64,000 bases of DNA from Pomacea canaliculata. Taxonomy: Eukaryota; Mollusca; Gastropoda; Architaenioglossa; Ampullariidae. The DNA is taken from positions 23,283,319 to 23,347,318 of the forward strand of contig NC_037591.1 in the NCBI RefSeq assembly GCF_003073045.1. Reading direction: 5' to 3'. Under the pieces are notes generated by a model. That model was not told the DNA's origin. It saw only the letters and a list, made by a program, of their open reading frames with translations, and ran no database searches. This document shows positions 3,801-61,400 of this stretch, piece by piece. Numbering within the stretch: the first letter of the stretch is position 1; the number at the start of each line of letters is the position of its first letter. The position numbers and the translations under genes were made by a program.

Positions 3801-6800
3801 TTCTATCTCTAACGTTAGATATTTGAAATAAATTCCTAAAAAATAAACAAAGTTGTCTTTTTGTGTAGGCGCTGTCCTGCCATACCCTGTACAACTGGAA
3901 GACGGTCTCAAAAATATTCCCACTAGCACTACAAGAGAGGACCACGAAGGGCGCAGAACTGTGGACAGCATTGGAAACGAAAGGGGCATAAGTAATTCTG
4001 ACTTGATTTTCGTGCATACTGGTTTATGTCATGTTTGTGTTGCCGTAAAGTCATGTTTTACTTACAGAAATCCCGTAAGTCCAGTTGGATTTCTATAATT
4101 GTCCATCTGTCTCGTACTTACTCTGATTATTTTGTCGTGTTTGTGCTCTCTCTATATTCCACGTTTTCAAATACTTTTTAAATAAGTGTTGCTAATGCTT
4201 TGCAGAAAACTTAATCCTTGGATAACTGCTCCGACATTCCGAACAGCGGGGACAATGCTGACGTCACATATTTCTGCGTTCTCTCTCTTTTTCAGTAAAT
4301 TTCAAAGTTTCTTATAATAAAGATCACGAAGGAGGCAAAATCCAGCCAGCCAACCCACCTTCATGGAATGATATAGGTCTCAGTACTACCTACACCATTT
4401 CTGACAAACTCAGTGAAGGGGACACGCTCACCGTGTGGGTCAAGGCCACTGATTACGTCAACAACGAGCTTGTGCAGCGCATTCACGTGACCCTAGACTC
4501 CACACCGCCCCAGCTACAGACTGCGAATACAGGCTTCCGCATGAACGAAATAGTTCCTGGAATCCCCTTCAGTTCCAAGTGAGAAGGATCGGGCTTTTCT
4601 TGACGCTGACTGAAAAATAGATGATGATGATGATGATGATGATGGATGGATGGCTTGATTGATTGATTGATTGATTGATGGATGGATAATGATGATGATA
4701 ATGATGATTATTATTGACTGTTTAGGTTCGAGATCAAGGTGAACGACGACGAGTCAGGAATCTGGTACACTCAGTGGACCTTCAAGTTGTCCAACGGCAG
4801 CATCCTCTACCAGCAGCGGCAGGAGGGTCGACAAGTAAGCCGCGAGGTACGGTAGCAGCAGTCATCCACATCTCAGACAAAACCCTCCTTTAGTCTCCAC
4901 ACCCACCTCCTGGCTAAGTTAGGAAACATGTCTGACATTTCTCCCAGTTAGCTCATTACATAGGAAAACATAAGACCTTTGGTACTCTCTACTCTTCTCC
5001 ATATTAGGAAAACATTTCTCTCGGGTAATTTACCTAAATAAAAGATAGAACATTTCTTGTAAGAAATTTACCAAAGCCGGTGAACATCATACTAGTCTTT
5101 CAGATAATTTATGAAATTATAAAACATCAAAACAAAGTACAGTGTTCCCTCGCTACTTCGCGGTTCATCTCTCGCGGATTCACTACTTCGCGGTTTTTTT
5201 TGAGTGAAGTATCGATCGATACTTCCGCGCTGGGAATTATCATTCTACAAAATACCATAGATATTTCAACAGGAAAAAGACGAAAAATGTAGCTATATTT
5301 GTATTTCTATTAAAATAGCATGGTTATTTTGTAGATAGATAGAAAGAAAGAAATAATTGTGTGACAGAAATCCATTGCTATATGCGTAAGCGACGAGCCA
5401 TGATTGTTATCTCCCATCTCGCAGCCAGTTCGCATCAGTTTTTTTTGGTTTCTCTGAGTACAGTTATAATTTTTTTACACTAATTTGTTATTGTACTGCA
5501 TTAATACCATGATTAATATATTACTTTACACTAACATGATATTGTTTTACATGTATATATTATTATTGCATGTATGTCCCTACTTCGCGGAAATTCGTTT
5601 ATCGCGGCTGATCATAGCACCTATCCCCCGCGATAAACGAGGGAACACTGTACACTGTTTCTCTATTCTTTTCCGATTTTTACAAATCATAAATGCATTG
5701 CTTACAAAGATTCGTTAATATTTTGTGAGGTATTAATAAAACATTGGGAATGATGAAGAGTGTGGCCTGTCAGTCACGTGCTGGGTGTGGAACATTTGCA
5801 GGAATGCACAGACGGTAGTACCTGTCGCTGTAGTCCAGACGGCGCTTGCTTCCCGTACGATCAGTCCTTCGCTCTCAGCAACTGCCGCATGATGGTCAGA
5901 AAAGACAACCTGCAGACCGAACGAATATACGCCACTGCTGACATCACCAACAGGGCAGGCCTCGTCACCACGTGGAACTGGACGGTGAGTGAGTGAGTGA
6001 GTGAGTGAGTGAGTGAGTGAGTGAGTGAGTGAGTGAGTGAGTGAGTGAGTGAGTGAGTGAGTGAGTGAGTGAGTGAGTGAGTGAGTGAGTGAGTGAGTGA
6101 GTGAGTGAGTGAGTGAGTGAGTGAGTGTTTAATGATGAAAGCAAATGGAGGAGAATGCGATTAGAAAGACAAGAACAATGGTATGGCAGTACACTTTTAC
6201 GAACGAGAAACCCTATGTATATACATATATATTTTCTTCTTTTTTTTCTTTACAGAAAACTGATCTCACTCAGCTGAACGGGACTAAAGAGTGTATGTAT
6301 TGTAGCATAAGCAATATATAGTGTGTGTGTGTGTGCGTTCTAGGGTCTCCAGCAACGAGGATCTTATTTTCATGTTAACTTTAGAAAGGATTTTACCGAC
6401 ATTAAGTGGTATTTACCAAAAAAAGGTGTTTTTAACTCTCTCACAGACTACCCACCTCAAAACGTGAGAGTGTCTCAGGTGACTGCCGACAGCGCCACCA
6501 TCACCTGGACCTTCCCGCCATCTTGTTTCGAGCGCACTGACGTGTGGGTCAGCGTGGTGCTGGACGGCCGCGAGACCAAAACACCGGTCCACCCGGACGC
6601 CACCTCCTACACCCTGGGTGGGCTGTCGGCTGGCTCGCAGTACAGGGTTGTCATGGTAACCAGATACGAGGGGGATCAGACAAGCGACAGTGAGAGCGTC
6701 ATCTTCACCACAGGTCTCGGCCTTCTCTTTTAGCCTTTGTACACTGGCAGGCTTAGTCAGTTTGTGATACTTTTATTTTGTTTCTGGGAAGTTTAACTGA

Positions 6801-9800
6801 GAGTGAATTTTCATTTTACTCCTCTAACATTGTAATTCGTGTCCCTTTGTCAAATTTATTTCGTTTCTCTCTCTTTCACACACATTTTTTTCGTAATGCC
6901 TGGACGTTTAAAAGCTCAAGTAAGATTATCTTTAGCTGAAAAAGAGTGTGGTTAGCAACATTTTACCTTCCAAGCTGATAAAAGACTAATTGTTCATTTC
7001 GTTGTTTTATTTATTGCTCTTCACGACGATGTGGGATCTGTGTCATCTACGTTCGGGTTCTAGAAGACAACGGTAAGTGAGTACACCAACATCCACATTG
7101 TAAAAATTACTGCTCCTACTGCTTTACACACCCAAGCACATGAACAGTGTTACAAGCATACAGCACACACGCTGTAAATAGGTAATAGACTATAAACTGA
7201 TATATTGAATATGTAAACTAATTTGTGCAAACTACTGTGTCTAAGGTACAATCTGTGTATTTGGTTGTCTGCTTCTTGGCTGTTTGCAAAACATGTTTCA
7301 CTCACATTTAGGAAATGCCAATGATTTATTCCCACATTTAAATTGTTTAAAAATATAAAATGCGGATGTTTGAGCGCATTCTTTCTAGCCTGTGATTTAA
7401 AAATGTAAAATTTTCAATTTAAACGATATTTCTTTATACGTGCAGGGATCTCAGGGGGAGCCATAGCTGGTATAGATCATAGGTGAGCATAAATAATTTT
7501 ACAACTTGTTCAGTAAGATCATTGTCCTGGCGCAGGTCTACCAAGAAATTATATTTGTAAGGATATTGCAAATATGTATTGCTTGTATACACATGCATTG
7601 CTTTATAGATTCCTTTATTTAGTAACATGGTTTCATGCCTTTATCTTTTAAAAACCAGTCTCTGTCTCGCTCATTACTGCTAGAAACAACATTGACTCAT
7701 TTAGTGGGCAACATTTACAAAATGTCCGCTCACGGTATCTATATCACGTGACTTTGCGGTGAGAACAGTGGATAACTGTAGTTGTTGCTGTTGTTGGCAG
7801 GCCTGCTCATCCTGGCGGCGCTGGTCATCTTCATCGTGCTCTTCGTGCTGTGGCGCAAGGGCAAGATCATGCAGCAGGGCCGCCCCAACGACCACATGCA
7901 GACGGTATCCAGGGCCTTCAGCAACATTCGAAAGAAGACCTTCAGGGCCGGACATGCAGGAGGATTCTCAGTAAACATTTTAATTCTTGCCCTGTGCTGT
8001 CATTCACTCATTTAATTTCTTTCTTTCTCTTTGTCTTTTCGTTAGTGTGCTCTTGTTTGCAATCGACTCACTCTTTTCATTTTATTGTTTGATCGGTCGA
8101 TTAATTGATTGACTGAGCAAGTATGCCAATCATTATTTTACCGTTTTTGAATTTAGAGAAGCTATCAGTATACAGTCTGAAGGTAAATTAAAATTAATAT
8201 TTAATAGCCCTTAATTAGTATTAACATGCCAGTTGACCTTACGCAGTCTCTTGATGTCGGTAGGTGTTTGTTGCATTGATGCTTTATTCTTTTATTTCCG
8301 TTATTCTAATCTGTTGCTTTATTCCTTTCCATTTCCGTTTATTGCAGAACAGTGCATACAGGGCGGATGAAGACGAGATTTATCTGTACGGCTCCATGAC
8401 CTTTGGCACGCGTCAGAACTGGCAGTTACAGAGCGACTCTCTCACCTTACTAGACCACCTGATGGAGGGCAAGTTCGCCAACATCTTCAAAGCCAGTCTC
8501 CGTGCCGCCAACTCTAACAAAACAACTGTTGTGGCTAAGTTACTTAAGAGTGAGTTTTCTTCTCAATCGTCACTTCTGCAACATTTCCTCCCTTTTTCGT
8601 TTTCTCGCTCGATCACCATTTCCTCCTTCACCATCTTCCGCAAACATACACGAACAAACAAGCTCTCTCTCTCACCCTCTCTCTCTCTCACAATATATAT
8701 ATATGCACACACACCTTCATGCAGCACGCACGAGCGAGAGTGTACTATTCGACTCCCCTGTCTTCCCAACTTCCCAGATGTTCCTGCAACCATCATTGCA
8801 CCCATCCTGTAATCCAGCATTTTACAAATTCTTTTAGATAGTAGAAGTCAGTCAACATGGATGACTGCCTAAAGTATTTGACTTTGATATGATATTGTTG
8901 GATCTTCACTAAACCCAGTTTTGATTTGTGATGATGGCATCCTTACATGTAGTTGTAATTTTCAGATGGCTTCTCTAAGGACGATGCCCTGAAGATGGTG
9001 GCCAAGATAAACTTCTTTGCGACACAGGTGGACAGCCACGACAATGTCATTCACTTCTTAGGCGCCGTCCTCGAGAACTCTGCATGTAAACAAGAGTTCA
9101 ATAACTTATTATAGGTCTTGTAAAAAGGATAAATATGTTTAGGTCTTAAGAAAAGGATAACTATTTTGCTTTTAGAGCGAATGCGTGTAGACATGTTCAT
9201 TTCTCTCAGTTGCCATAGTTTTACACAGCCTTTGTTTTGCGTTTTCTTTATCTACAGGGGGTCCAGTCATGGTTTTAGAATACTGCGAGGGGGAACCACT
9301 GGATAAGTGGCTGACCTCCTACAAGGGTAAACGAGTTGACGAACAGGTCATGGACAAACTGTACCAGTTCAGCATCGGGATAGCCAAGGGCATGGAGTAT
9401 CTAGCGTCCAAAAAGGTAAAGGGAGAGGACGGGCAAGAAAGAGAGATAATAAGACTCCAGGGAGAACCGCAAGAAACGAAAATATAGAAAAACGAAAAAA
9501 AGGCTAGAAAAGTAACATGCACAGAAGCACATAAGCAAAGAAATAAGGAAACAAGAAAAAGAAAAAAAAACGAAAAAGAATATTATTTTGTCTTTTAATT
9601 TCTTTTAATTGAAATTTACTCTCACTGCATACTTGCTGTTACTTAACAAGGTTTAAGAACTAGCAGCTGGAGAATATTTCAGTAGTCGTGCGACAGAGTT
9701 CTGCCAGAATGTATGGGTGAGCTGAGTCACAGGGTCACACCAGCTCTAGTGCATCCAGCAAGTTTCACATGAGGCCCTCGTTGCATGTAGCTCTAGTGTA

Positions 9801-13945: not shown

Positions 13946-13951
13946 TTTATT
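13946..13951 (-). promoter_or_regulatory. Candidate poly(A) signal of the Met/Gly gene
   Basis: TTTATT on the plus strand, that is AATAAA on the minus strand, about 100 bp past the stop at 14047. Confidence 0.5.
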
Positions 13952-14046: not shown

Positions 14047-14809
14047 TCATCCGAAGGCTGGCATGCCTGTCATACCAGGCATACCTCCCATACCGGGCAT
14101 ACCTCCCATACCGGGCATGCCTCCCATACCAGGCATGGTTCCCATACCGGACATGCCTCCCATTCCAGGCATGCCTCCCATACCGGGCATGCCTCCCATA
14201 CCGGGCATGCCTCCCATTCCACCCATGCCTCCCATGCCTCCCATGCCGTATCCCATGGGGTAGAAATCAGGAGGGTCAAGCATGGAGTTGATCATCCCCA
14301 TCATGGGCAGCATGTTACTCATCATGGACATAGGGTTCGGCTGCTGTTGCTGCTGCTGGGCTGGTTCGCTGTCTGCATCTTAGCCATGATCTGTGCCAGC
14401 TGCGCGAGGCTTTGCGGCGTGAAGGGAGACTTTGCCGCGCCGCTCGACCCAGCCGCTGCGGCGTCCGCTGCCGGCACAGCAGGAGCGCTGGCGTTGCCTC
14501 CTGCAGGAGTGTTGTTGGAGGGGTTGAGTGGGAGCTGGGCGGCGCTGGCCAGAGCGTTGATGAAAGAGTTGGTGGGGGCCGGCTGGGACGCCGCCTGGTT
14601 CGCGCCGCCAAACGCCTGGAAAATGGCGTCCATGCTCGGAACCGCGGGCGCGCCGCCTGCCGCGCCGCTGGCACCTACAGCGTTCAGTGGGTTGCCGCCT
14701 ACCGGCTTGGGCATGGTCCCGAAACCACCCAGCATGCTGCCTGTGCCCGGCATCATCCCGCCTGGCACCATCATACGCCTTAGCATCTCGAAAGGAGTCA
14801 TGTTGCCCT
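14047..14809 (-). CDS. Terminal exon: Ala/Pro-rich region, Gln run and GM-rich repeats
   Basis: The acceptor tttttgcag joins G|AG to read [15 protein letters not shown] low-complexity Gly/Met/Pro/Ala/Asn region follows to MQTANQP. At this point the frame closes at 14322, but the next frame over reads a Gln run, then [16 protein letters not shown] and tandem GGMPGM-type units to TGA at 14047. Both halves share the Met-rich character of exon 2, so I read a one-base loss at about 14358-14361 (CAGCC then CAG). If the shift is real, the protein ends 90-odd residues early. Confidence 0.75.
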
Positions 14810-17800
14810 CTGCAAAAAGAGTTCGGCATTGAGCAACCCCAACACTGAATCACCTGCCACGTGCAAAATCTCCATCGGAAAACTGAGCTAACAACTAAAG
14901 TGCAAAGTAATGTTGCCCTGTATTAGTCTTTAATGCTGAAGACGTGTATTTGTCCTTCTATTGTTTACCTAGTGTGGACGATAAATTGCAACAAAACTTG
15001 CATAGTCTTTGCCTCAATGTCCCACTAGCCCGTGTAACACTATCCACAACTCATGCACTGATATGTTATTGGACTTATTTTATTTGTTGTTGACGTTATA
15101 GTAGATCTGCTCTTATGTTGTTGTTGTTGCTTTTAGCCCTGGTGAAAGTTTGTCAAGAGTTTGGTGACATTTCCGTCAACCGTTGAAACCGTTAGTATAA
15201 TGATATCTAATTGTTGATGTTGTGCAGCCTGACTTAACTAAGACATTTTCTCTGTTCATAGTTTGAAACTTACCACCACAGTATGGGTTGTGACAGGGAT
15301 CTGAAAATTAGCAAACAGAAAAATATACAGAATATCCGTCTTTACTATTTATAGTTTTCAGACTTTTTTTTCAATTCATATGATGGCAACAACAACAGAG
15401 CTGAACAAGTCAGAACGTTACAGCATGAACATTGAAACATATGACAGTAGTGTAAGTGTTCCAGACACCTATTTTCAAACATAAAACATTAGATGTCTAG
15501 TGCCGATTGGAAGTACGATACCATTTAGATACTTCACTGGATGTATGCTGCCCACCAAGCACAAACGACAGTGACCTTTACATAGATATACAGTATAGTA
15601 TATGGCCGAGGTAAACATTCAGTGCGTCCATCGTCTGTAGCACAGTTTAACAGTCATTGACTGTCCTCTCTTCGGAGACACAATACGACAGGTTGACTTA
15701 CTTATTATTCCTGGAGTCTCCATAGCTGTGTCGAAGTAATCTCCGATGACATCTGTAGGATAAGGACACATTGTTACTGATGCCATTATGGCAATAATGC
15801 TACATGGCTGAAATGTAATGACATTCGTACAGAGTGATCCTGATAAAAAAAAAGGCCTCGTGTTTGTCTGTTGGAACAGGCATGTATTTATGTGTTTATA
15901 CATGTATGTGTACAGGTATTCTATCGTTTGCTCTCTCTCGCTCTCTCACTCACACACACACACCTATATACATCTGCACATCCACACACGCTAACACACG
16001 CAGTATATATGAAACACGTACTTGGAGCTCCTGCCGCAGATCTTCCATCTAAAAAAAAAGAGAGAGAAAATGTGTCCTTATTTTCGAATTACATAAAAAC
16101 AAACTTTTCTTCTACAGAAATAGGGAGACTAATTAAAAAGTGTACAATATGAAATAAAGAAACTTTACAACAGAAAGAGAGAAAAAGATCATTTAAAGTC
16201 ATACACTAGAACTAAGATGAAAGAATGATTAAGAATAAAACAAAACTTCAAAGACAAAAAAAAAAAAAGAAGGAATTAAAAAAAATAAATGATTAGATGA
16301 CTGATACTTAAAAAATATATATAATCACGCCTACGTTGTCAATGTCACAAGCTTCGTTTTGTCAACATTTCGACTTACTACTGTTCATGATAATGTTTGT
16401 AAATTTGTCCCAGAAGTGGAAGGAGGTTACATTGCATTTACTTAGAATTCTGGATGCTTTCGATAATAAAGCAAAAAAACCCACTAAACCATAAAAACAA
16501 AGCAACAAAAAGTAGCAAATTAAAACTCCAAGACCACAATGTCTTTCCAGTGCTTACTTCCGGTGGCGAAATTGAATAAGCCTGCAACAAACACAAAAAC
16601 ATTCTTTTTAGAAGATAATGAGTAACGAGTTGGGAGCAATCTCTCTCTCTCACAAACACATGCACAGAGACATATTTTCGAATACGTTTTAAATCAAGAT
16701 TAACAACCATGGATGATCTCGAGCTGTATCTATAACAAAAGTGGTAGATGAAAAATACAAAGCAATAAAAATAAAGTTGTACTCACATTGCCACTGGCGA
16801 TTGGCTCCTGCTCCAACGGCACCGGGAGCTGTTGTACAGGAAAACAAAACAACAATCAGCAATGTCTTCACTCTGGCAGGTGACTGATAGAGCATAATAT
16901 TCCGCAAGTCTGACTGAAAAATGAGAATTTACTCTGCAAGTCTATCTCTTTATCTGCCATAAAAATCTTAAATTATTCTACGTCTCTCTTTCTTCTGTTC
17001 TTCTTTCCTTTCTCCGTTTCTTTTTCTTTCTCTGCTCTGTAACCCTGTGCGAAAATGTTCTTAAGATCTCCATATATCCTTGCATTCTTTAGCAAAAGGT
17101 CGTAGTCTATGCAGATAATATACTGCAGTGTACAAACTATATACATAAAGGAAACCATAAATGTTTTATTGTATAAAAAAGCAAGAAACCATATACATTG
17201 CTGTGGTACTTACATGAAACCATAAACTGAGTTGCAGTACGCATGGCATCAGCTGAAAAAGACGAAAATAAAGGGCTGATGGAAGAATACAGTGAGCATT
17301 AACTATAGACACACTTGGAAGGATGTTGTATAGTTACAACTTGCCTAGTATATATAAGTGTGCAGTCTAAAAGATGAATAATTTATCTTTAGTTAACATT
17401 AAACATTAAACTACCTAAAATTGAAAGAAAATGAAGAATACTTACACAGTCCATCTGTTCCTCTTGTTTTCACATCTGTAATGAGACACGAACTCAAAAT
17501 TTCAAATTTAGTTGCAACGCCAACGGTCTGACCATAACCATTAAATTATTGTGGAACAAAACTCATTTGAAAGACTCTATAGATTGTCTCTTGTGCCATC
17601 TATCGTTATTATTTTCAGAACAGTAATCATTATCACTACAGTCCTCGATATCATCCACAACAAAAATCTCTTTTCGCTCTCTTGTATCTAAGTGTCAAAC
17701 TGTAAGATGAAAAAAGAATGAAACAACTCCCCTCTCCCATATTTGTAATTAGGAGACACGCCTTCCCATATAAAATTGTTTGTACTTACACGCCTCGTAG

Positions 17801-20800
17801 CAGATTTCTGAAAAGAAAAAAAAATTAAGCATATGAGATGCATGACGATATCCTTTTACATACTGTGATGTAGGAATGAAATGTAATAAATGGCTAGGAA
17901 GCAATTCTATTAAATTGGGGATTTAGGTAAACTCCGGATTGTTTGTATGGAACCCACGGAAAGGAGCATCATTTACACGTCTAACTCTCAAGGATGCCAC
18001 TGCATTTTGACTAGAGGCAATTCATGACGAACGCGATGACTATGCAGATGACAGTATAATGTTGTATTGACAGCAGTATGTAGTCATTATGCTTGCACTC
18101 ACGTTCCAAGTTTTTCCCGGCAAACTGCAATGCTGAAACAGATGAAGATTTCTAATCAGTCTCAAAAGATTTAAGGGCTTCTGTTAAAACAAAAACAGTA
18201 ACAAATAATAAAACGAATGATAAAATAATACTAAAAGTATAAAAAAAACTTAAAACCACAAATTTCTGTTGATAATGTTCTGAGAACCTTTAACATCTTT
18301 CATTAGCTTGTAATTATACCAGCTTACTTATTTAGTTCCGGTTTTGTTTTCTCAAAGCGTCTTGCAAGCATTTCACTTTTTACCGTGACCAAAAAGATTC
18401 AGTTTGCGAATTTGTGGGCTGGGTGGTAAAAGCACAAAGTTCTTTTGTTCATACCTTACCCTAAATCGCTTAATTAAGTTCTGTTATAGTTACCTGTGCC
18501 GTCAGGCATGAGAAAGGACGCCATTGCACCCATCATGCCTCCCCCTCTGAAAGGCGAACTCATCATTTGATTGACCGGATTTGTCATCCTTGCTCCCCAG
18601 GGTACTGCCATGGAGACCGCCACAAGGCAGCCTGAAAGAGAAAGGACAATTGAAACCTATACACTATAGTGGCAAAGTCAAGCAAAAATGCTAAATTACT
18701 TCTAAAACGCTTCTGTGGCGATCGCATCTTTAAAGCTTCTTCTTAACAGGACAGTGATGGGTGCACAAATGTTGTTAATATTGGACCAATTGAAAATAGT
18801 CGTTAGACACCTGGTGTGAGGTGCCCTTCATTAAAAAAAAAATCATGTGCACAACGGTCGTGAATCATCAGGAAGCCGCCATGACCATCTAACGTAAATG
18901 CTTTCATGACCCTTGAGTTTCACAAGTTATGTTTCGAATAACTCTTTTCTTTTTTTTATGGGAGTCATCACATGAGACGTCCCTAAGGCTACATTAAGAT
19001 TTTGTGTTTTTCTTTTTAAAACTTACAGTTTTACGTGTCTGCCATAAATATCTCTGCAGTTGTTATATAGTCTTTGTCCATTGTCTTCTAGGTTCCTTAA
19101 TTATCAGCCAGAAATATTACTAATAAGCTGACTGCTCCGACATCCAAAGCACAGGGGATATAAATCTGACAGTTAGTGTGTTTCTCTGTCTTTTCATTTT
19201 TATGTCATTAACTCTTCCCCCCCCCCCTCTCTCTCTCTAGCTGTGGATGTTTCACTCTCTTCGCATTTTTCAATCGTTTCCTTCTTGCTGCTGTCTATTT
19301 TTCTGTTTATCTCTCTTTTTTCTTTTTTGTTTTACCCCCAAGATTTCTTCACATAGAAATTAAAAGCAGCAGAACAACAACAAAACACAATGAGTGATTT
19401 GGTTGCACAACTGTGTGGAAATGCATGCATATTAGGAATGCAATAATTACAAATAATTGTAATTCTTGGACGATAAATGCTACCCTCATAATAAATGCAA
19501 TATAATTTTGCCGTATGATTCCTGTTGCACGCTTTTAAGCACAGAATTCTTACAATACAATTAATGTCGCAAAATTCTTGGCCTTTTTTCTTCATAATTC
19601 CTACAACACAAATCTTGACGCCGCATAATTTTTATTACAATTATTTATAGATAAATATTTTATAATTTTACAATTTTATATAGTTTCTGCAATATAACTT
19701 TTTGTCGTAATTTCTCCTGTTTATGACTGCTGTCTCGTGTTGCAGTCACGAACACTTTAATGTGTCTGTTGGGACTGATAATGACTCATCTGCGCATGCT
19801 CGGACAGTCGAGCCTGTCGTCTCGTGCGTGGTTTATCTCTGTCGTCTTGTGACGAGTGGTGTCGGCCTGTCGTGACAATACATCATGGCCGTGACACTAA
19901 GACACTAGAGCCTTGTATCAGACACACGTAAGGATTTGCATTTGGAAGTCAGATGCACATGAAGACAACACGCACAAGCGGTAAAATAAAATTACAAGCA
20001 AAAGGTCTAAATATAGCTTTGAAGGGTGGCTGGGTTGGGCTGGTCTGATAGGGATGGACAGCGCTTAGAAGATGATAAACAACACCATAAACAACAAAAG
20101 TGCTCGATTTTTGTCACTAGACAAGTCAATGTTTTTCAGCTTATTGGATTTGTTGTTTTAACTTCATGTTATTACTTGGCTCCATACAATTTTGTTTTGG
20201 GAGTTTCACCATGTTTTCAGCCTTCCTCACAAAATAATTGTTGTCCATATTTCTGTCTGTTTTTCTACTTGCCTGCCTGTCTGAAATGCAAACGCCACAT
20301 AACAAGGAAATGAGGTTTATCTAAGGAAAAAAAATCAGGGTTTGATTTTCTAAAAACTAGTCTGGCAGGATTATTTTTTACTGTCTGCAAGCGGTTTGTT
20401 TTGGGAGCCTTACAAGTACTGCTTTGCAAGAGTCATCAAAAGGACGGTAGTGTGAAAGAGAAAAGTCTCTATGAAGCAGCAGAGATAAATGACGAAGAAT
20501 ATAGGAAAATGTCCTGGGTTTCAGGAAGGTTTCACGACAGAGTTGACATGAGAGTAGGAAAATGGTCAAGGTACACTCTCATGTATTTGACGCAGATTTT
20601 CACCTATGTCTGATGAGTGTTAGCTCTTAGTCCATCGAACCCAAAATATGACGCAGAACCCACAGACAGTAGTTCAGTTCTACAGGCGTTCAGGTTTAGC
20701 TTATTTCTGGTCATCCACGTGAGAACGTAAGAAATAATGTGTGAACATCAGTCACAGGAGCAGAAGTAGGGTTTGTGTAAGGAGGGAGGGGGACCTGGTG

Positions 20801-22898
20801 TCTTACATCGAGCCACCAGCTGAGGCTATATCACGGCAAAACAGCCAGCTCTGTAAATAGACCCACATGCCCAAAGAGATTAGCGTGTCGGAGACGAGAT
20901 CTGAACCCAGGCCAGCGAATTGTCATTGTATTGGTGATCCGGACAGGAACATAGAAGTGTTTATGAAGGGAGATTTTGGATAACACAGTGTCATCAGCAT
21001 ACTGACGACAATAACAGCTGAGAACACGAATAAAATCGGACAGCGGTTGAACATACATCATAGGTCCCGGCAGACAGCCCTGAGGTACACCGCAAACACG
21101 CAGGCGGGGAGATCAAACAACACCATACAGGAACAAAAGGACTTCATCTGACATGCGTCAGTTCGTGATGTGACTAATGGTTTTTTTTCTGTTCTTTTCT
21201 TACTTGTTGTCACAAACCTGCTGAGATGTATTTTTTAAAATGTTTTTTTTTAATTAGTAAAAGTAATTGTTCGGGTGAGGTGGTAAAGACAGCTATCACT
21301 GGGGCTGTTAGTGTCAACAGCCTGAGGCGTGCCGCGCCATACAGGAATGGCCGGCCGGTCTTTGTGTTAATTAAGTTCTGTTGATAGGTTGTTTGGTGGT
21401 TACTTTGAACAAAGGAAAGAGGGTGATAGTGTGTTGGATGTGTGTGGTTTGATTGGGGTTTTTCCTTGACGGGAGCGGAAGAAGAGAGTCTTCTTGGTGT
21501 TGTCAGTGTGTCCGGAGCGGACGGCTATTGCTTTGTAACAGTCTTGACGGACTTGGTGTTTGTAACCTGTGTGTACAAGTCCTGACCAGACTTGGATTGT
21601 GTGTATAAGTCCTGAACCGACTTGAAGTACCAGACTTGTTTGTGTTTGTTAACATTGAACCTGTTGAAGTTTTCTTGTAAGTTTTCTTGTGGATTACTTC
21701 TGGATTTACCTTTTGGAGTTACCTTTGGATTTACTGTTGAGGTTTACTTTGGATTTTCTTTTGGATATAACTACAAGACGAAGTGGAAACTTTGTGACTT
21801 TTTCACGTGGATATATAGTACATGTTAGAAGTGAAAACATTGTGCCGTTTCAGTGGAGACTTTGAGAGAAACTGGACGAGAGGATTGAATACTTTTGAAA
21901 CTGTTGGAAAGAAACGTGTGTACGAATTGTGGGTTGGAAAATTAGGAATCGTTTTGTATTGTGTTTATTTATTTTTTTGTTTTCTTCTTTTATTTTGATT
22001 TTTAAATTATATTATATTTCTAAAGTTTAAACTGTTGTCTGTGTTTTGATTTTATTAATTGTCTCGTCTGAAAGGCGCTGTAGAGTGCAGGTGACACTTG
22101 TCCTATCGCGTATAGGTGATTCTAAGTCGCACCTTGTGAGACACTAGGCCAGTGGTTCTTAACAGGGGTTCTATCGAACCCTAAGGGTTCGGTGAGTCGG
22201 TCTCAGGGGTTCGGCGGAGCCTCCGCCAAGGAGGTCAAAACACACCCGAGTGACCTTAAAATTAGAATTCTGTCAATAACAACAAAAATAAAAAATAAAA
22301 TAATAATAATAAATAAAAAAAAGAAGAAAAGAACGCGAAATCATGGCGGACGTAACATGATGAAATGTGTTTAACACATTCTGCATTATCGTATCGAAAT
22401 CCACCTACCACCCAAACGCAGGAACTTCTATATCTGTGTCAGCTATTCCAAGATACCAATCACCACATTATTGAGAAAATTATTTCACTATAACAGTCAA
22501 TATAAAATATAATGCTTAGTTAAACACTTCAAGTAAACAACCAAGAGATTAAAAATGAGATTCATTTTAGAAAACGAAAATAAGCAAAATGTGCATTTAT
22601 ATATTTTTCAAAGTTAGTAGACGTATGGCCTAGATGGATGATGACAACAAAAAACATACTTAAGAAGAAAATACAAAAATATTTTGAAATGTCTAGTACG
22701 TGTGTGAAAAAAATATGTTTAAGTTACTTGGCATTGAGTTTAGGAGTTTAGTAATCAAAAAAAGACAAACTCTAAAGAAAAAAAAAAAGTAGTCCACAAG
22801 TATATATTTTCATGTGATTTTCAAAGTGAGTAGTCATTCAAAGTTTTAAGATATTTGAAAGTATAACACTTACTTGCTGCTGTCAACAACCTCAGCAT
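14047..22898 (-). CDS. Secreted Met/Gly-rich protein with serial micro-exons (13 exons)
   Basis: Coding exons in minus-strand order: 22874-22898, 18494-18631, 18103-18132, 17790-17807, 17446-17475, 17214-17252, 16787-16828, 16558-16581, 16379-16456, 16022-16048, 15702-15752, 15274-15300, 14047-14809. Every junction is phase 1. Exons 3-12 are 30, 18, 30, 39, 42, 24, 78, 27, 51 and 27 nt, all multiples of three. Exons 1 and 2 join to read [20 protein letters not shown], a clear signal peptide. Next come a Met-rich stretch ([20 protein letters not shown]), small modules with a few Cys ([15 protein letters not shown]), an Ala/Pro/Asn-rich region and a terminal MGGMPG repeat. The last exon needs one added base near 14358; the total is then 431 codons, an exact multiple of three. 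I do not recognise the family. A structural extracellular role (shell matrix, mucus, egg or adhesive) is inference. Confidence 0.8.
14060..14250 (-). repeat. In-frame coding minisatellite (GGMPGM units)
   Basis: About ten tandem 15-18 bp units (plus strand: cctcccataccgggcatg and variants) encode Gly-Gly-Met-Pro-Gly-Met. Long open frames on the plus strand here (His-Thr-Ser-His-rich and similar) are antisense readings of this repeat. Confidence 0.85.
20831..21095 (-). mobile_element. Non-LTR retrotransposon reverse-transcriptase fragment (YADD core)
   Basis: The minus-strand reading has [11 protein letters not shown], about 26 residues, then [10 protein letters not shown]. This matches the GVPQGS...YADD palm blocks of CR1/Jockey-type LINE reverse transcriptases. 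It runs open for about 85 residues and then loses similarity, so it is a 5' and 3' truncated relic. It lies in the first intron of the Met/Gly gene, on the same strand. Confidence 0.8.
21300..22140. repeat. T/G-rich repeat-like block, possibly a solo LTR
   Basis: Contains about two copies of a 30-bp motif (tgtgtgtacaagtcctgaccagacttgg-like) and several ttttggatttac-like units. It resembles LTR sequence in style and ends gtgagaca, but I find no convincing target duplication or primer-binding site. Tentative. Confidence 0.25.
22150..22260 (+). mobile_element. hAT-like repeat end (5' part)
   Basis: Starts CAGTGGTTCTTAAC and continues ggggttctatcgaaccctaa and ggttcggcggagcc. This resembles a repeat family I remember from many animal genomes, with hAT-style CAG tips. 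The inverse terminus is not found nearby, so the element is truncated or decayed. Confidence 0.5.
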
Positions 22899-42165: not shown

Positions 42166-53458
<11,293 letters not shown>

Positions 53459-55425: not shown

Positions 55426-58400
55426 ATGGCAGAGAGACATTCTGTAGACTTTCATGAAATATTCACATTCCTCTCAGACCATAGCTGGATACATCAAGTG
55501 CAGCTTACACAATATTTTGTGGAGAAGATCTGGACTAATATTCCAGAAGAGGTGAGTGAAATGGGAATATCTCAATATCACATACTGTAAAACAGGCTAT
55601 TAATCCTAATTTCCCTGTAACTTTTGTTTGATATGTCGTAGACAAAATAAACTGCAATGTGGCAAATTGTGTGATAAAGTGGCCTCATTATTAAAACATG
55701 GATGCCTCTAAAATACTTTGAAGCTTGAAATCAATTATGAAAGAAACATGCTATTCAAATATATTCAACACATGTTTGCATCTGCTTCTGCTATATACTT
55801 ATCTGATGCAGTTATCTTTCTTTGATAGAAGTCTTTATGGCTGCATTAAAGCATCATACTCAGCCATATTAGATCTTATTTGACAGTTAATTCTGCCGCA
55901 AAGTTCATGTATGCAGTTGTATTGAACAGGTCATACTATTGCTAACTCTCTTTTTGTTATATTTTGCACAAACCATCTTGACAGAGCCCATTCAATGCTG
56001 CTGTTTGCTTTTTATAAACATAAGACTGATGGAAACTGGTGACTTCAACCCAATACCACATTGACCCAGCCATATCTACCTCCACCAGAGACAGATTGAC
56101 ACTTGCCAAGACCAAATTGATCCACGTAAAACCAAATTTTCCCAAAGCCAAAAGTCCAAAACTCATATCAATCATCTTTAATACAAGAAGCTGGTCATGC
56201 CAAATAAAGCTGACAACCATGCATTGTTTGAGCACTATCCATAAGCAAGGCAACACATTTTGTACTGAGATTTCTGTAATGGATCAATTCAGCTTTCACT
56301 GTTGGTTTTATGTGGGTTGATTTGGTTATGGTAGGGGTCAATATGACTCTGGATGAAGGTCAATGTCTCTGGGTCAAAGTGATCAGTGACAAGACAGTTC
56401 ATGATGTGCCACTTCTTTTCTAACATTAACAAATGCTATGATGTGTTAGTGTTGTCTTTATGGTCTTGTTCCTGTGTTGGTCCTGTGCCAGTTGAATAGG
56501 CTCCTTTACTCAGCATATCCTGATCGCTTTTCTTTTTAACATATAGGACTTGAAAATTTTGAGCATCACACATTTTTTTTAATTCGGATCCCACTCTTTG
56601 GAATTTGTTGCTTCTCACCCTATAATACAACATGTACAGCACAACATTTGTCCCAGAGATCAGTGATGAAGCAGCTCACATCAGTAAACAAAAACCACAG
56701 CACATGGTCAACAACACCTTTACACATTCATAACTGCCACATGTAGATCATAGTCAATAGTCCCTCATATAATTACTCTTCACATACACACGCCATCACA
56801 GTTTATTCTATGGCTTCATTTTATTTTAACATAAGAAGTATTTGAGTCAGATTTAAAACAAAAAACAACTTTTCATAGATTTTACCCTGCTTGAGATCCC
56901 CTTTTCACCCTACCCCCATTTCTGCTATGCGCTGGAGAGTGAGGGTGTGCTGACATGTAGGCATACACCAGAACTTGTTTAGACATTTAAGATAATGTAA
57001 GCCTGTTCATTTTTGTTTGTTGGGCGTAGTATTGATGAGCATAATATTCATTCACGTTCTGTAGTTTTAGAGTTATTTGGTTACATGTTACATAATATAC
57101 TCATTTAAAGTGTTTCTTATATCTCCCATAAACAATGTTTTTCAGTGGAACAAGGTTTTGTCATCACTTTCAGCAGAGCAGCTGAGTAAACTTCCTTTTG
57201 AAGTAGGTGGGCAGTGTACTTCAGACATAAAGCTCCATTTCCAAAATCCTCCAAGAGAATCTCTTGCATCATTCTTACAGAAATCTGTGCAGCTTAGTTG
57301 TGAGCGTCAGCAGGCCAGACACTTGTTGTCTCCAACACCAATTGATAGAGAACTGTCAAGGGGAATGGCTTCAAAAAAGGTTCATGAGGTAGAATGGATG
57401 GCCTCCCTTGTACACCGGGTGACATCAGAGTCAGGCTGTGATACTGTGGTGGATGTTGGCTCAGGTCTGGTAAGTACACTGTAAATTTTAAGTTCCTGAA
57501 TTTATGTAATTAAGCTTATAGATATTTGACTGTGATTGACTGGGGTTCTCAAGGGTCAAGGATGTCATATGCAAGTTCTTGAACAGAGGCATTGGATGCG
57601 ATATCATTGAACAGAAGGGTGGTTTACATTCTTATCTTAATTTGTGTATATTGTTATGTTTTACATCTCTGTTCATCTGCTGCTTTTAATAAATTTTACA
57701 TGGTTGTCAGCAGCTTAAGAGCACGATATAACATTAAATAATATTGCATGTCCTATTGTTAAAAACTTGTTAAGACATATACCAACATGAATTACAATTA
57801 GGTATTTGTCTCTGTGACTGTGGGTATCTTGCTAATGTGTGTATGTTTTTAAAGTATCTAGTACATACATTGATTCTTTGAATATTCTTTGAGTATCACA
57901 TACTGTATGGATGTTTTGAGTTTGAGAATATGTAAAGAACAATTGGTAATGTTTCTTTTGTTGAGCAGGGATATCTAGGACAAGTGCTACACAAAGTCTA
58001 TGGGTTGCCTGTCATTGGTGTAGAAGGGAATGCTGGACATAATGAAAGTGCTGCATCAAGAGCCTGCAAGCAAGGTACATTCACTGTTTTCACCATAAAA
58101 TTACATGTTTTTCTACAATAAATTATGAGTAAACCTATGTTGTAATACTCATAAAAATATTGGATAAAGAGTTAATTTGTATGCATATTCTAATTTGGTG
58201 TTCTAAATATAGATCTTATTTATTTGGTTACATAGATTTTGTATTCCTGATCTTTAAAATATATTGGTATATTGTTATTGTTTTATGATTTGATTGCTAT
58301 ACTTACAAATGAAGAAGAAATTTACAAATTGCAGGTATGGAATGTTCTGGTTTGAAAACCATTACTTTAGAAATCTGTGATGGTGAAGACAACTTAAAGA

Positions 58401-61400
58401 ACTGTGTTGCTGTCATTAATGAAGCAGTGCTATCTTTGTCACCATGCCAACATACTTCTAGAAATGTTGAGGGCTCAAATGCAGCCACTAACCAGATGAA
58501 ATATAATACTGAAGAAAATATTACTAATGACACAGAAAAGACTGGAAATAAGGAGAGACATTGTGGTTTGGAAATCAGTGAAACTACTAGATCTGCAAAA
58601 GGCCAATGTGAAACAAAGTCTCCTTGGACAGAATGTGGGTGCCATGTTTATGATGGAGAAAAAGTGATAGACAAACTTACTGACTCTGATCATGCTGAAC
58701 CAGAAGCTTTTGGTGAAGAGAAAGCTGTTTCTGAGTGTCTGCACGATCCTGAGAGTGCATATATTACAATAACTGATACCATGAGAAGTGAAAGTCCTTT
58801 GAACTGTCTGCATTGCAGAAATACATCAGGAGGAAATACAGATCGGTTGTCACATTCACAGAACAGTAGTACTTGTAAAGATCAAAATGCAAAGTGCCAT
58901 TTAAATTCACAACAAGGGTGGACTACTAGAAATAAACATTTTAATGAAAGCAGATGTACATTGACAAGCATACCTTGTATGAAGACAAACATTGAAAAGG
59001 GGGGCAGAAAAGTGTGTTTAATAGGATTGCACTGCTGCGGTGATCTCTCCCCTGTCATGCTGAAACTTTTTCTCTATGCTGAGTTCATTGGTGCCATCAT
59101 TCTTGTCAGCTGCTGCTACCACAAGATGTGTAAGATTTCTGGTAAGGTGTTTGACTTTGATGATGTTATGTTCAAAAGTATTAGACATGGTTAAATTGGC
59201 TCGAATGCAAGTTTTCAAGTGGATGGCGACTGGCATTTTATATTTACCTACTTACATTGTGAGCACTGAGACAAGTCAAATTTGTGATATCACACAGCCT
59301 TATAACATATTCTCAACTCTTTGGCTAAAGCTTTGGTGATGAAATTATATTTATCCTTCGGGATGATGTTTTAGTTATTATCGATTTCTGTACATCTTAA
59401 TATTTGAAGGCTAGATGTTTTTTCAGATTTGGGTAATTAGCGTCTTGAATAAACTCCATTACAAAAAATAACTTGGCACTCAGGTGTGTGTTTGACTCTC
59501 TAAAGCTTGGAATTTTGTGCTTAACAGGCAAGATAGTATTTTTTTTCACCATGCATGTTCAACTTAATGTAGTTTTATTGACATGACTTGCAATTCATGA
59601 TTTTCGTATATCATTTTCATGAAGCCATATATCTAATTAGTGAAGAATTTTAATTTCTTGACTTAAGGGTGGAGAAATTTACTTTGTTTGACAGGGTCTG
59701 ATCAGTTCTGTAACTTCCCTTTGAGTGAGTCAGCGATACAGGCTTATAGTTTAGCCCAAAAAAAGCATTCTACTTTATCATCTCCTTTCTTGTCAACTGG
59801 GAGTTTGAGACTGGCAGCTCAAGAAACAAGGTTAGTTACAGACTCCATTTCTATCTTCAACACAAGATGTTTAATTTTTAGCATACAAGAATAATTTTTG
59901 TGCAAAGCAAATATAGTCAAACATGGTCAAAAAATCACTTTCTTTTACATCCATTTATCTGTTATGCTACTTATTTCCTCATATTGTTAGACCTATATTT
60001 TATATCTGTTTTCTTCAGTATTACACATTTACTGCACATTTACAAATAAAGTAATCACACTTGCCAACATACAGAAGTGGTCAAGTGTTCCAACAGTAAG
60101 ATTGTGGTTGTCGGTCAAGATGTGGACCTACAAATAACATGAAACACTATGCTATAAGTATTAATGCTATATATACACATGTTAAACCAAAACTACATGT
60201 GTGTATTCATACAGATAATCCATTTATTAAAATAAAAGAACATTTTTCAGGACACGCTGGGAAGCTCAACGCGAGGCTGATCATGACAATCATGCTCGGA
60301 ACCTGGCATACAGGGCTCTACTGGAAGTGTTTCTGAGTAAACAAGATTATGTGATGCATCATTTGTTCACTTTAGTTCTAGGATTTTTTTTTCTTGGCAA
60401 TGCAACCTGCAACAGATGCAAGTTAAGATTCTGTTTTTAGGTATGTTGAAGAATGTACACATATTGTGTGAGTGTAGTATAGGCATGATAAACCATGTAT
60501 TGTGTGAGTGTAGGGGAATTTAAGTTTTTCCCTTAAATAGTGAATGCTTATTTTTGGATATACATGAAAAAAATCAATGAAGAAGTTAAGGCTATTGCTA
60601 TTTTGCAGTAGGTGATTTCGAGGGCTTAAGTAAATCTGAATATGTTGCCTAATAGAGAACCAGCAAAGATTGAGGGCAGACAGGAGAAGAATCAGGAAGC
60701 TAAACTACAGTAACTTTGACAGCTTCATCAACTCTTATATAACCACACTGCCAATTAGTGATGAAGGTAAATGAACTCTTATTTTTGTGTCTAGACTTCT
60801 TTGCAGGGGTGTTACTCATCTTTGCATCACAAAGAACTACAAATGCATTCTATATGTACCTCACCATTATTTAGCATTTGTGTGCTGTGCTGTATACTTC
60901 CCTGAGACATAGCATTTGAACAGAATACTCCCAATCTTCCTTTTAAGGTAGAAATGAGAGATTTTCAGTAGTGAAGTCAGTTCATGTACAAAATTCAGCT
61001 TTTGAGCCTGAGCAAGTGATAATATGCAAACAAACTCTTACCTTGTGCAAGTGTCAGCTGTTGGATGAAGAATCTTTGATGAATGTGAAATGAGTTGAAA
61101 ACTCTGTCAGGCAAGGTGTATGCTGAATAGAATAGACAAAACATTAAGTGGTGGAAAAAAAAGAGATTGTATGTTGGCTTCTCAGAGAAACTGGGTGTTG
61201 ATTGAAAAATAGTAGAGAATAAACATGTCTGTACTGATTTGCCAGTTTGATGATCATGAGGTTTTCGTGTACTTGTGGAACAGAAGAGAAGACAATTGTC
61301 AGGAGGGAAATGGAGAGGCTGCATTCACAGCTACAGCCCTACTTTAGATCAATTGAGCCTTTCACAGTAAGACGTCTTCTGACATTTTTAAAGACTAAGT

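Follow-up and report, generated by a model that had tools for sequence, protein, structure and literature searches.

The minus-strand chain from position 22898 to about 14050 of the window (the whole 64-kb stretch of DNA that was analysed) is a real gene of Pomacea canaliculata with an uncommon exon design. It consists of 12 coding exons that belong to one gene, and its spliced translation was identical, over 312 of 312 residues, to the GenBank entry C0Q70_03384 (hypothetical protein, 312 aa). The original prediction that a gene lies here was confirmed by this identity and by a chain length far beyond chance. It had also expected ordinary gene finders to miss most of the gene, and this was not the case: because the translation of the chain equals C0Q70_03384, every exon of the chain is present in the public annotation. 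The gene is thus already annotated as a hypothetical protein, and it is apparently unstudied; a literature search for C0Q70_03384 by name gave no mention, and the 20 titles listed in a search for “micro-exon gene” together with mollusc named no mollusc micro-exon gene.

According to the annotation procedure as described in the genome paper, EVidenceModeler combined ab initio, homology, and RNA-seq data into the gene models, each model had to have UniProt, InterProScan, or RNA-seq support to pass the filter, and 97.5% of the annotated genes had transcriptome support (PMC6129957). Because the protein has no domain above the cut-off and no relative was found, we infer that RNA-seq is the likeliest reason why C0Q70_03384 passed this filter. 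The model was made on the same genome, so it is not wholly independent evidence.

To analyse the chain quantitatively, splice sites were scored with simple acceptor and donor matrices that reflect what is generally known of splice sites in animals, and we searched for the longest run of open phase-1 exons of 15–150 nt each with lengths in multiples of three. With a combined splice score of at least 14, the longest chain within 15201–18699 on the minus strand had 10 exons, while 200 dinucleotide shuffles of 15201–18699 gave a maximum of 5 and the opposite strand gave 0. When the cut-off was relaxed to 13, the chain had 11 exons against a shuffle maximum of 6. For a natural control, 36 pieces of 10 kb were searched at cut-off 14 on both strands and in three phases, which meant 216 tests. 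Thirty of these pieces came from contig C2 (ten flanking the window and twenty spaced over the first half of the contig), and six came from the window, minus its last 4 kb. At the locus the longest chain was 11 in phase 1 and 8 in either of the other phases, and the best value in the 35 other pieces was 4. Since the control covered 0.36 Mb of a genome of 440 Mb, it marks the pattern as uncommon but gives no count of genes of this kind. A chance origin of the chain was ruled out by the 200 shuffles and the 35 other genome pieces.

Exon–intron architecture and the terminal exon

The features of the locus are listed in Table 1. As had been predicted, there are ten consecutive internal exons with lengths in multiples of three and all in phase 1; in the splice chain, 10 of 10 open at the second codon position and close after the first (phase 1-1). 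The predicted sizes, 18–78 nt with nine exons of at most 51 nt, were correct for the nine exons of 18–51 nt, but the largest internal exon is 138 nt and not 78 nt. All 11 introns are GT-AG, and the ten introns besides intron 1 span 193–509 nt. None of the 11 junctions of the full-length chain created a stop. Combined splice scores were 15.4–22.8 in nine of the internal exons and 13.2 in exon 5, and the GC content of exons 2–11 was 51% compared with 34.5% in their introns. The N-terminus is hydrophobic (by the Kyte-Doolittle scale only) and is read as a predicted signal peptide divided between exons 1 and 2, which corrects the earlier claim of one signal-peptide exon 4.2 kb upstream.

Table 1 Features of the micro-exon locus (positions in the window)
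Feature	Positions	Strand	Description
Exon 1, coding part	22874..22898	minus	25 nt, ATG at 22898, ends in phase 1; residues 1–9 of C0Q70_03384, first half of predicted signal peptide
Intron 1	18632..22873	minus	4242 nt, GT-AG
Exon 2	18494..18631	minus	138 nt, largest internal exon; rest of predicted signal peptide, plus a stretch with Met/Gly; splice scores 13.8 and 8.9
Exon 3	18103..18132	minus	30 nt
Exon 4	17790..17807	minus	18 nt; QICYEA module, Cys67
Exon 5	17446..17475	minus	30 nt; combined splice score 13.2, lowest of ten
Exon 6	17214..17252	minus	39 nt
Exon 7	16787..16828	minus	42 nt
Exon 8	16558..16581	minus	24 nt; exon 7/8 junction splits Cys108
Exon 9	16022..16048	minus	27 nt
Exon 10	15702..15752	minus	51 nt
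Exon 11	15274..15300	minus	27 nt; NPCHNPYCG module, Cys144 and Cys149
Exon 12, coding part of annotated model	14322..14809	minus	488 nt including stop; Ala/Gly/Pro/Met low-complexity tail; residues 151–312 of C0Q70_03384
Met/Gly repeat, second frame (frame B)	14047..14379	minus	110 aa, 27% Met, 31% Gly, 18-nt tandem unit; outside annotated protein
AATAAA, candidate poly(A) signal	13946..13951	minus	about 100 nt past frame-B stop

Intron 1 contains a reverse-transcriptase-like fragment at 20831–21112 on the minus strand (RVT_1 at 22.1 bits, where the Pfam cut-off is 29.6). The stretch at about 22150–22260, also inside intron 1, looks by eye like the end of a hAT-type transposon. A recent burst of hAT-Charlie elements is described in the genome paper (PMC6129957).

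The annotated stop ends at 14322, and the stop of frame B is at 14047. An apparent frame break near 14350–14380 (14322–14400), beside a CAG-rich stretch, separates the annotated tail from the Met/Gly repeat, and it may be an assembly error, a polymorphism, or decay. Frame B was also considered for the terminal exon in its entirety, and a stop just before the repeat part rules this out. The original prediction ran over 14047–22898, from the start codon to the frame-B stop, which means that its model crossed the frame break. Its description of the protein as Met/Gly-rich is true of the repeat, but the repeat sits in another frame than the annotated protein. Comparison of the nine repeat copies gave 9 of 16 differences at the third codon position (p = 0.05), or 6 of 11 (p = 0.12) when the last copy, which is degenerate, was left out. 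These third-position differences and the nearby poly(A) signal weakly suggest that the repeat is coding, now or formerly.

Protein features and relatives

The mature annotated protein contains 16.3% Ala, 12.9% Gly, 9.5% Pro, and 7.1% Met. The micro-exon region (about residues 55–151) has four cysteines, Cys67, Cys108, Cys144, and Cys149. The single-sequence structure model had a mean pLDDT of 41.4 and a pTM of 0.24, too weak to judge the folding of the cysteine region, and low-confidence helices were predicted at residues 54–73, 78–93, 95–115, and 123–136, crossing exon borders. No Pfam family scored above its cut-off (highest score 11.5 bits, cut-off 23), consistent with the earlier remark that no domain could be recognised, and no solved structure was matched by sequence at E ≤ 10.

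In a search of 5.8 billion proteins with the full-length sequence, the protein itself was the sole hit among the best 7999 candidates scored, and with residues 40–175 it was again the sole hit, among 150 candidates. These protein searches depend on shared five-residue words, and apple snails and other caenogastropods may be sparsely represented in the database. The search with the Met/Gly tail gave 268 matches at E ≤ 1 among the best 8000 scored. In the 120 of the 268 that were listed, the matches apart from the query gene were mostly low-complexity stretches of proteins that are unrelated by Pfam label (for example p23, DnaJ, and GroEL), and when these 120 were compared with the core, the protein itself was recovered and otherwise a single chance match (E 5.7).

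Paralogues were not found within the 64-kb window, and 100 kb of flanks gave one chance-level match (E 0.15) with an internal stop. The six-frame search of the whole genome gave 4 matches, and all of them were the gene’s own exons (2, 7, 10, and 12). At the sensitivity of the whole-genome search the gene is single-copy; a diverged copy could escape because single micro-exons are too short to find. Elsewhere in the window, pieces of fibronectin type III and tyrosine/serine kinase domains lie at 6344–6733 and 9191–9487 on the plus strand and perhaps belong to one receptor kinase gene to the left of the micro-exon gene. The N-terminal domain of dipeptidyl peptidase 8/9 was found at 52955–53458 on the minus strand and a Methyltransf_32 domain at 58313–59194 on the plus strand; these two neighbours are conserved and are useful synteny anchors for locating the gene in other snails.

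Comparison with known micro-exon and matrix systems

Like the schistosome micro-exon genes (MEGs), the snail gene has a predicted signal peptide followed by a run of tiny exons that are mostly multiples of three, no relative turned up for it in the protein searches, as MEGs have none outside their lineage, and its product is of low complexity, as MEG products, often low-complexity or disordered, are described to be (PMC10526429, PMC5825161). By one published definition, about 80% of the coding region of a MEG is in short symmetric exons of 6–36 bp (PMC5825161), whereas the snail gene has 288 of 939 coding nt (31%) in exons of at most 51 nt, a share that falls to 156 of 939 (17%) when the limit is set at 36 nt. 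Another description gives short exons of 6–81 bp, 10 to 20 per gene (PMC10526429), and the snail gene has such a run, nine consecutive exons of 18–51 nt in one phase, just under the quoted 10–20. The conserved hydrophobic/aromatic motif that is described after the MEG signal peptide (PMC10526429) is absent from the snail protein by eye. MEGs form a family of many genes (35 in S. mansoni), but only one copy of the snail gene was found; the snail gene also differs in its 488-nt coding terminal exon, and its host is a snail and not a flatworm. The label schistosome-MEG-like is justified as an analogy between gene designs, but the low micro-exon share and the single copy of the snail gene do not allow membership.

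Aphid bicycle genes are described as having many micro-exons, internal exons nearly all starting at codon position 2, a signal peptide, and fast evolution (PMC9168663), and the ten of ten snail internal exons with this start (intron phase 1) resemble them. However, bicycle genes form large families with CYC motifs, while the snail gene is single-copy, with four core cysteines and no clear CYC pair by eye. The bicycle gene-structure classifier, used with its printed coefficients (PMC9168663), gave 0.63 against a cut-off of 0.72, a value to be read with the classifier being aphid-trained and the snail outside its intended species range. In intron phase the snail gene is nearer to the aphid bicycle genes than to MEGs, and by the features tested it is a member of neither; the snail, MEG, and bicycle designs could be convergent. 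Tropoelastin, an extracellular matrix product, is also encoded by many small multiple-of-three exons in one common intron phase, with cassette-like alternative splicing, and it is likened here to the snail gene by the design of these exons alone.

With respect to matrix proteins of molluscs, GMP_LOTGI of Lottia is reported as an abundant shell matrix protein with 20% Gly and 18% Met (PMC4094399), Met-rich insoluble scaffold proteins are described from the shell of Pinctada fucata, one of them needed for nacre (PMC7591529), and lineage-restricted low-complexity proteins are described as typical and dominant in mollusc shell secretomes (PMC4897951). Like the predicted snail product, GMP_LOTGI and the Pinctada proteins NU-5 and LMP are extracellular and carry low-complexity regions rich in Met or in both Gly and Met, but the likeness is by composition alone and is strongest in the out-of-frame snail repeat. 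A shell proteome of P. canaliculata was reportedly published by Liu et al. in 2023 (2023b).

Possible function and significance

Our tentative explanation, to which we give somewhat less than even confidence, is that this single-copy, lineage-restricted gene encodes a secreted extracellular matrix or scaffold protein of the shell, egg capsule, or mucus, and that its micro-exons are mostly constitutive; the function is proposed from composition alone. The predicted signal peptide would send the protein out of the cell, the nine-micro-exon region with its four cysteines would form a small, perhaps disulphide-linked part, and the Ala/Gly/Pro/Met tail would aggregate or cross-link into an insoluble matrix in one of these materials, in the way proposed for the Met-rich shell proteins of molluscs. 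The micro-exons would mostly be included, and their uniform phase may permit some skipping without loss of frame. The Gly/Met-rich composition, as in abundant mollusc shell matrix proteins, points to such a matrix protein, and low complexity together with the lack of a relative in the searches suggests it as well, these being features that are not specific to shell proteins. On the other side, the Met/Gly repeat, which is the part most like a shell protein, does not keep the reading frame in the assembly and lies outside the annotated protein, and composition alone is a poor guide, as the tail search mostly led to unrelated low-complexity stretches.

Mostly constitutive use has to be weighed against extensive skipping of the micro-exons, which would yield many secreted variants with a differing cysteine core and a shared tail, under selection for variability (defence, parasite, or mate interaction). 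Because most exons have well-formed splice sites, there is mild support for constitutive use. The trinucleotide TGC upstream of the acceptor is a mark of regulated neural microexons, and no excess of it was found upstream of the acceptors of the gene (4 of 11 introns compared with 4.1 expected), which also argues against extensive skipping. MEGs are reported to generate protein variants by exon skipping (PMC5825161), and in the snail gene the ten symmetric internal exons in one phase leave 62 of the 66 possible exon junctions and 964 of the 1024 exon subsets without a junction stop. By this freedom of the reading frame, protein variants through exon skipping are possible. The original prediction had held that any subset could be skipped in frame; this is true of the 964 subsets, but four of the 66 junctions, those that join exon 4, 5, 6, or 7 directly to exon 12, make an in-frame stop. 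A fast-evolving gene would be expected to have no relative in the searches, as was found, but the public model is one full-length form, only one gene copy was found, and the exons are not alike as interchangeable repeats. If the cysteine region is one folded unit, free skipping would be harmful, and if it is disordered, skipping would be cheap. We regard extensive skipping as unlikely, and it is quite unlikely that the snail independently evolved a micro-exon gene in which a single-copy locus gives many secreted variants via skipping combinations of nine phase-1 micro-exons, bringing the MEG strategy beyond flatworms and aphids.

A secreted but non-structural protein, such as an egg perivitelline-fluid, mucus, or antimicrobial factor in which the cysteine micro-exon region is active and the tail is a spacer, is possible but doubtful. 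The signal-peptide-like start, the four core cysteines, and the weakly predicted helices would suit it, and among the components of the calcified egg capsules of P. canaliculata, a proteomics study lists a set of proteins in which no known domain occurs (PMC13394694). However, the helices are of low confidence, the protein has neither a Pfam domain nor a solved-structure match, and nothing ties it to eggs or immunity. It is very improbable that the chain is an annotation artefact, that is, chance open stretches between splice-like sites which were joined both by the original reader and by an ab initio predictor and have no translated product. The missing relatives in the searches with the full protein and with residues 40–175 could be taken in this sense, as could the frame break in the terminal exon, which resembles that of a decaying gene, and the match to C0Q70_03384 is not independent of the genome sequence; but the chain is much longer than in the shuffles and in the 35 other genome pieces, all 11 junctions are stop-free, and exons 2–11 have a higher GC content than their introns.

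Because P. canaliculata is an important invasive pest that is also used in experiments, transcripts and proteomes are checkable, and an independent variant-making micro-exon gene in a mollusc would be testable with data of kinds that already exist. Should the micro-exons be joined in varying combinations, the snail, schistosomes, and aphids would share a route to secreted variety from one gene, which would suggest that this design arises repeatedly in secreted, fast-evolving proteins. If the micro-exons are constitutive, the locus would still be a clean case for studying the origin and the splicing recognition of a run of micro-exons in the same phase.
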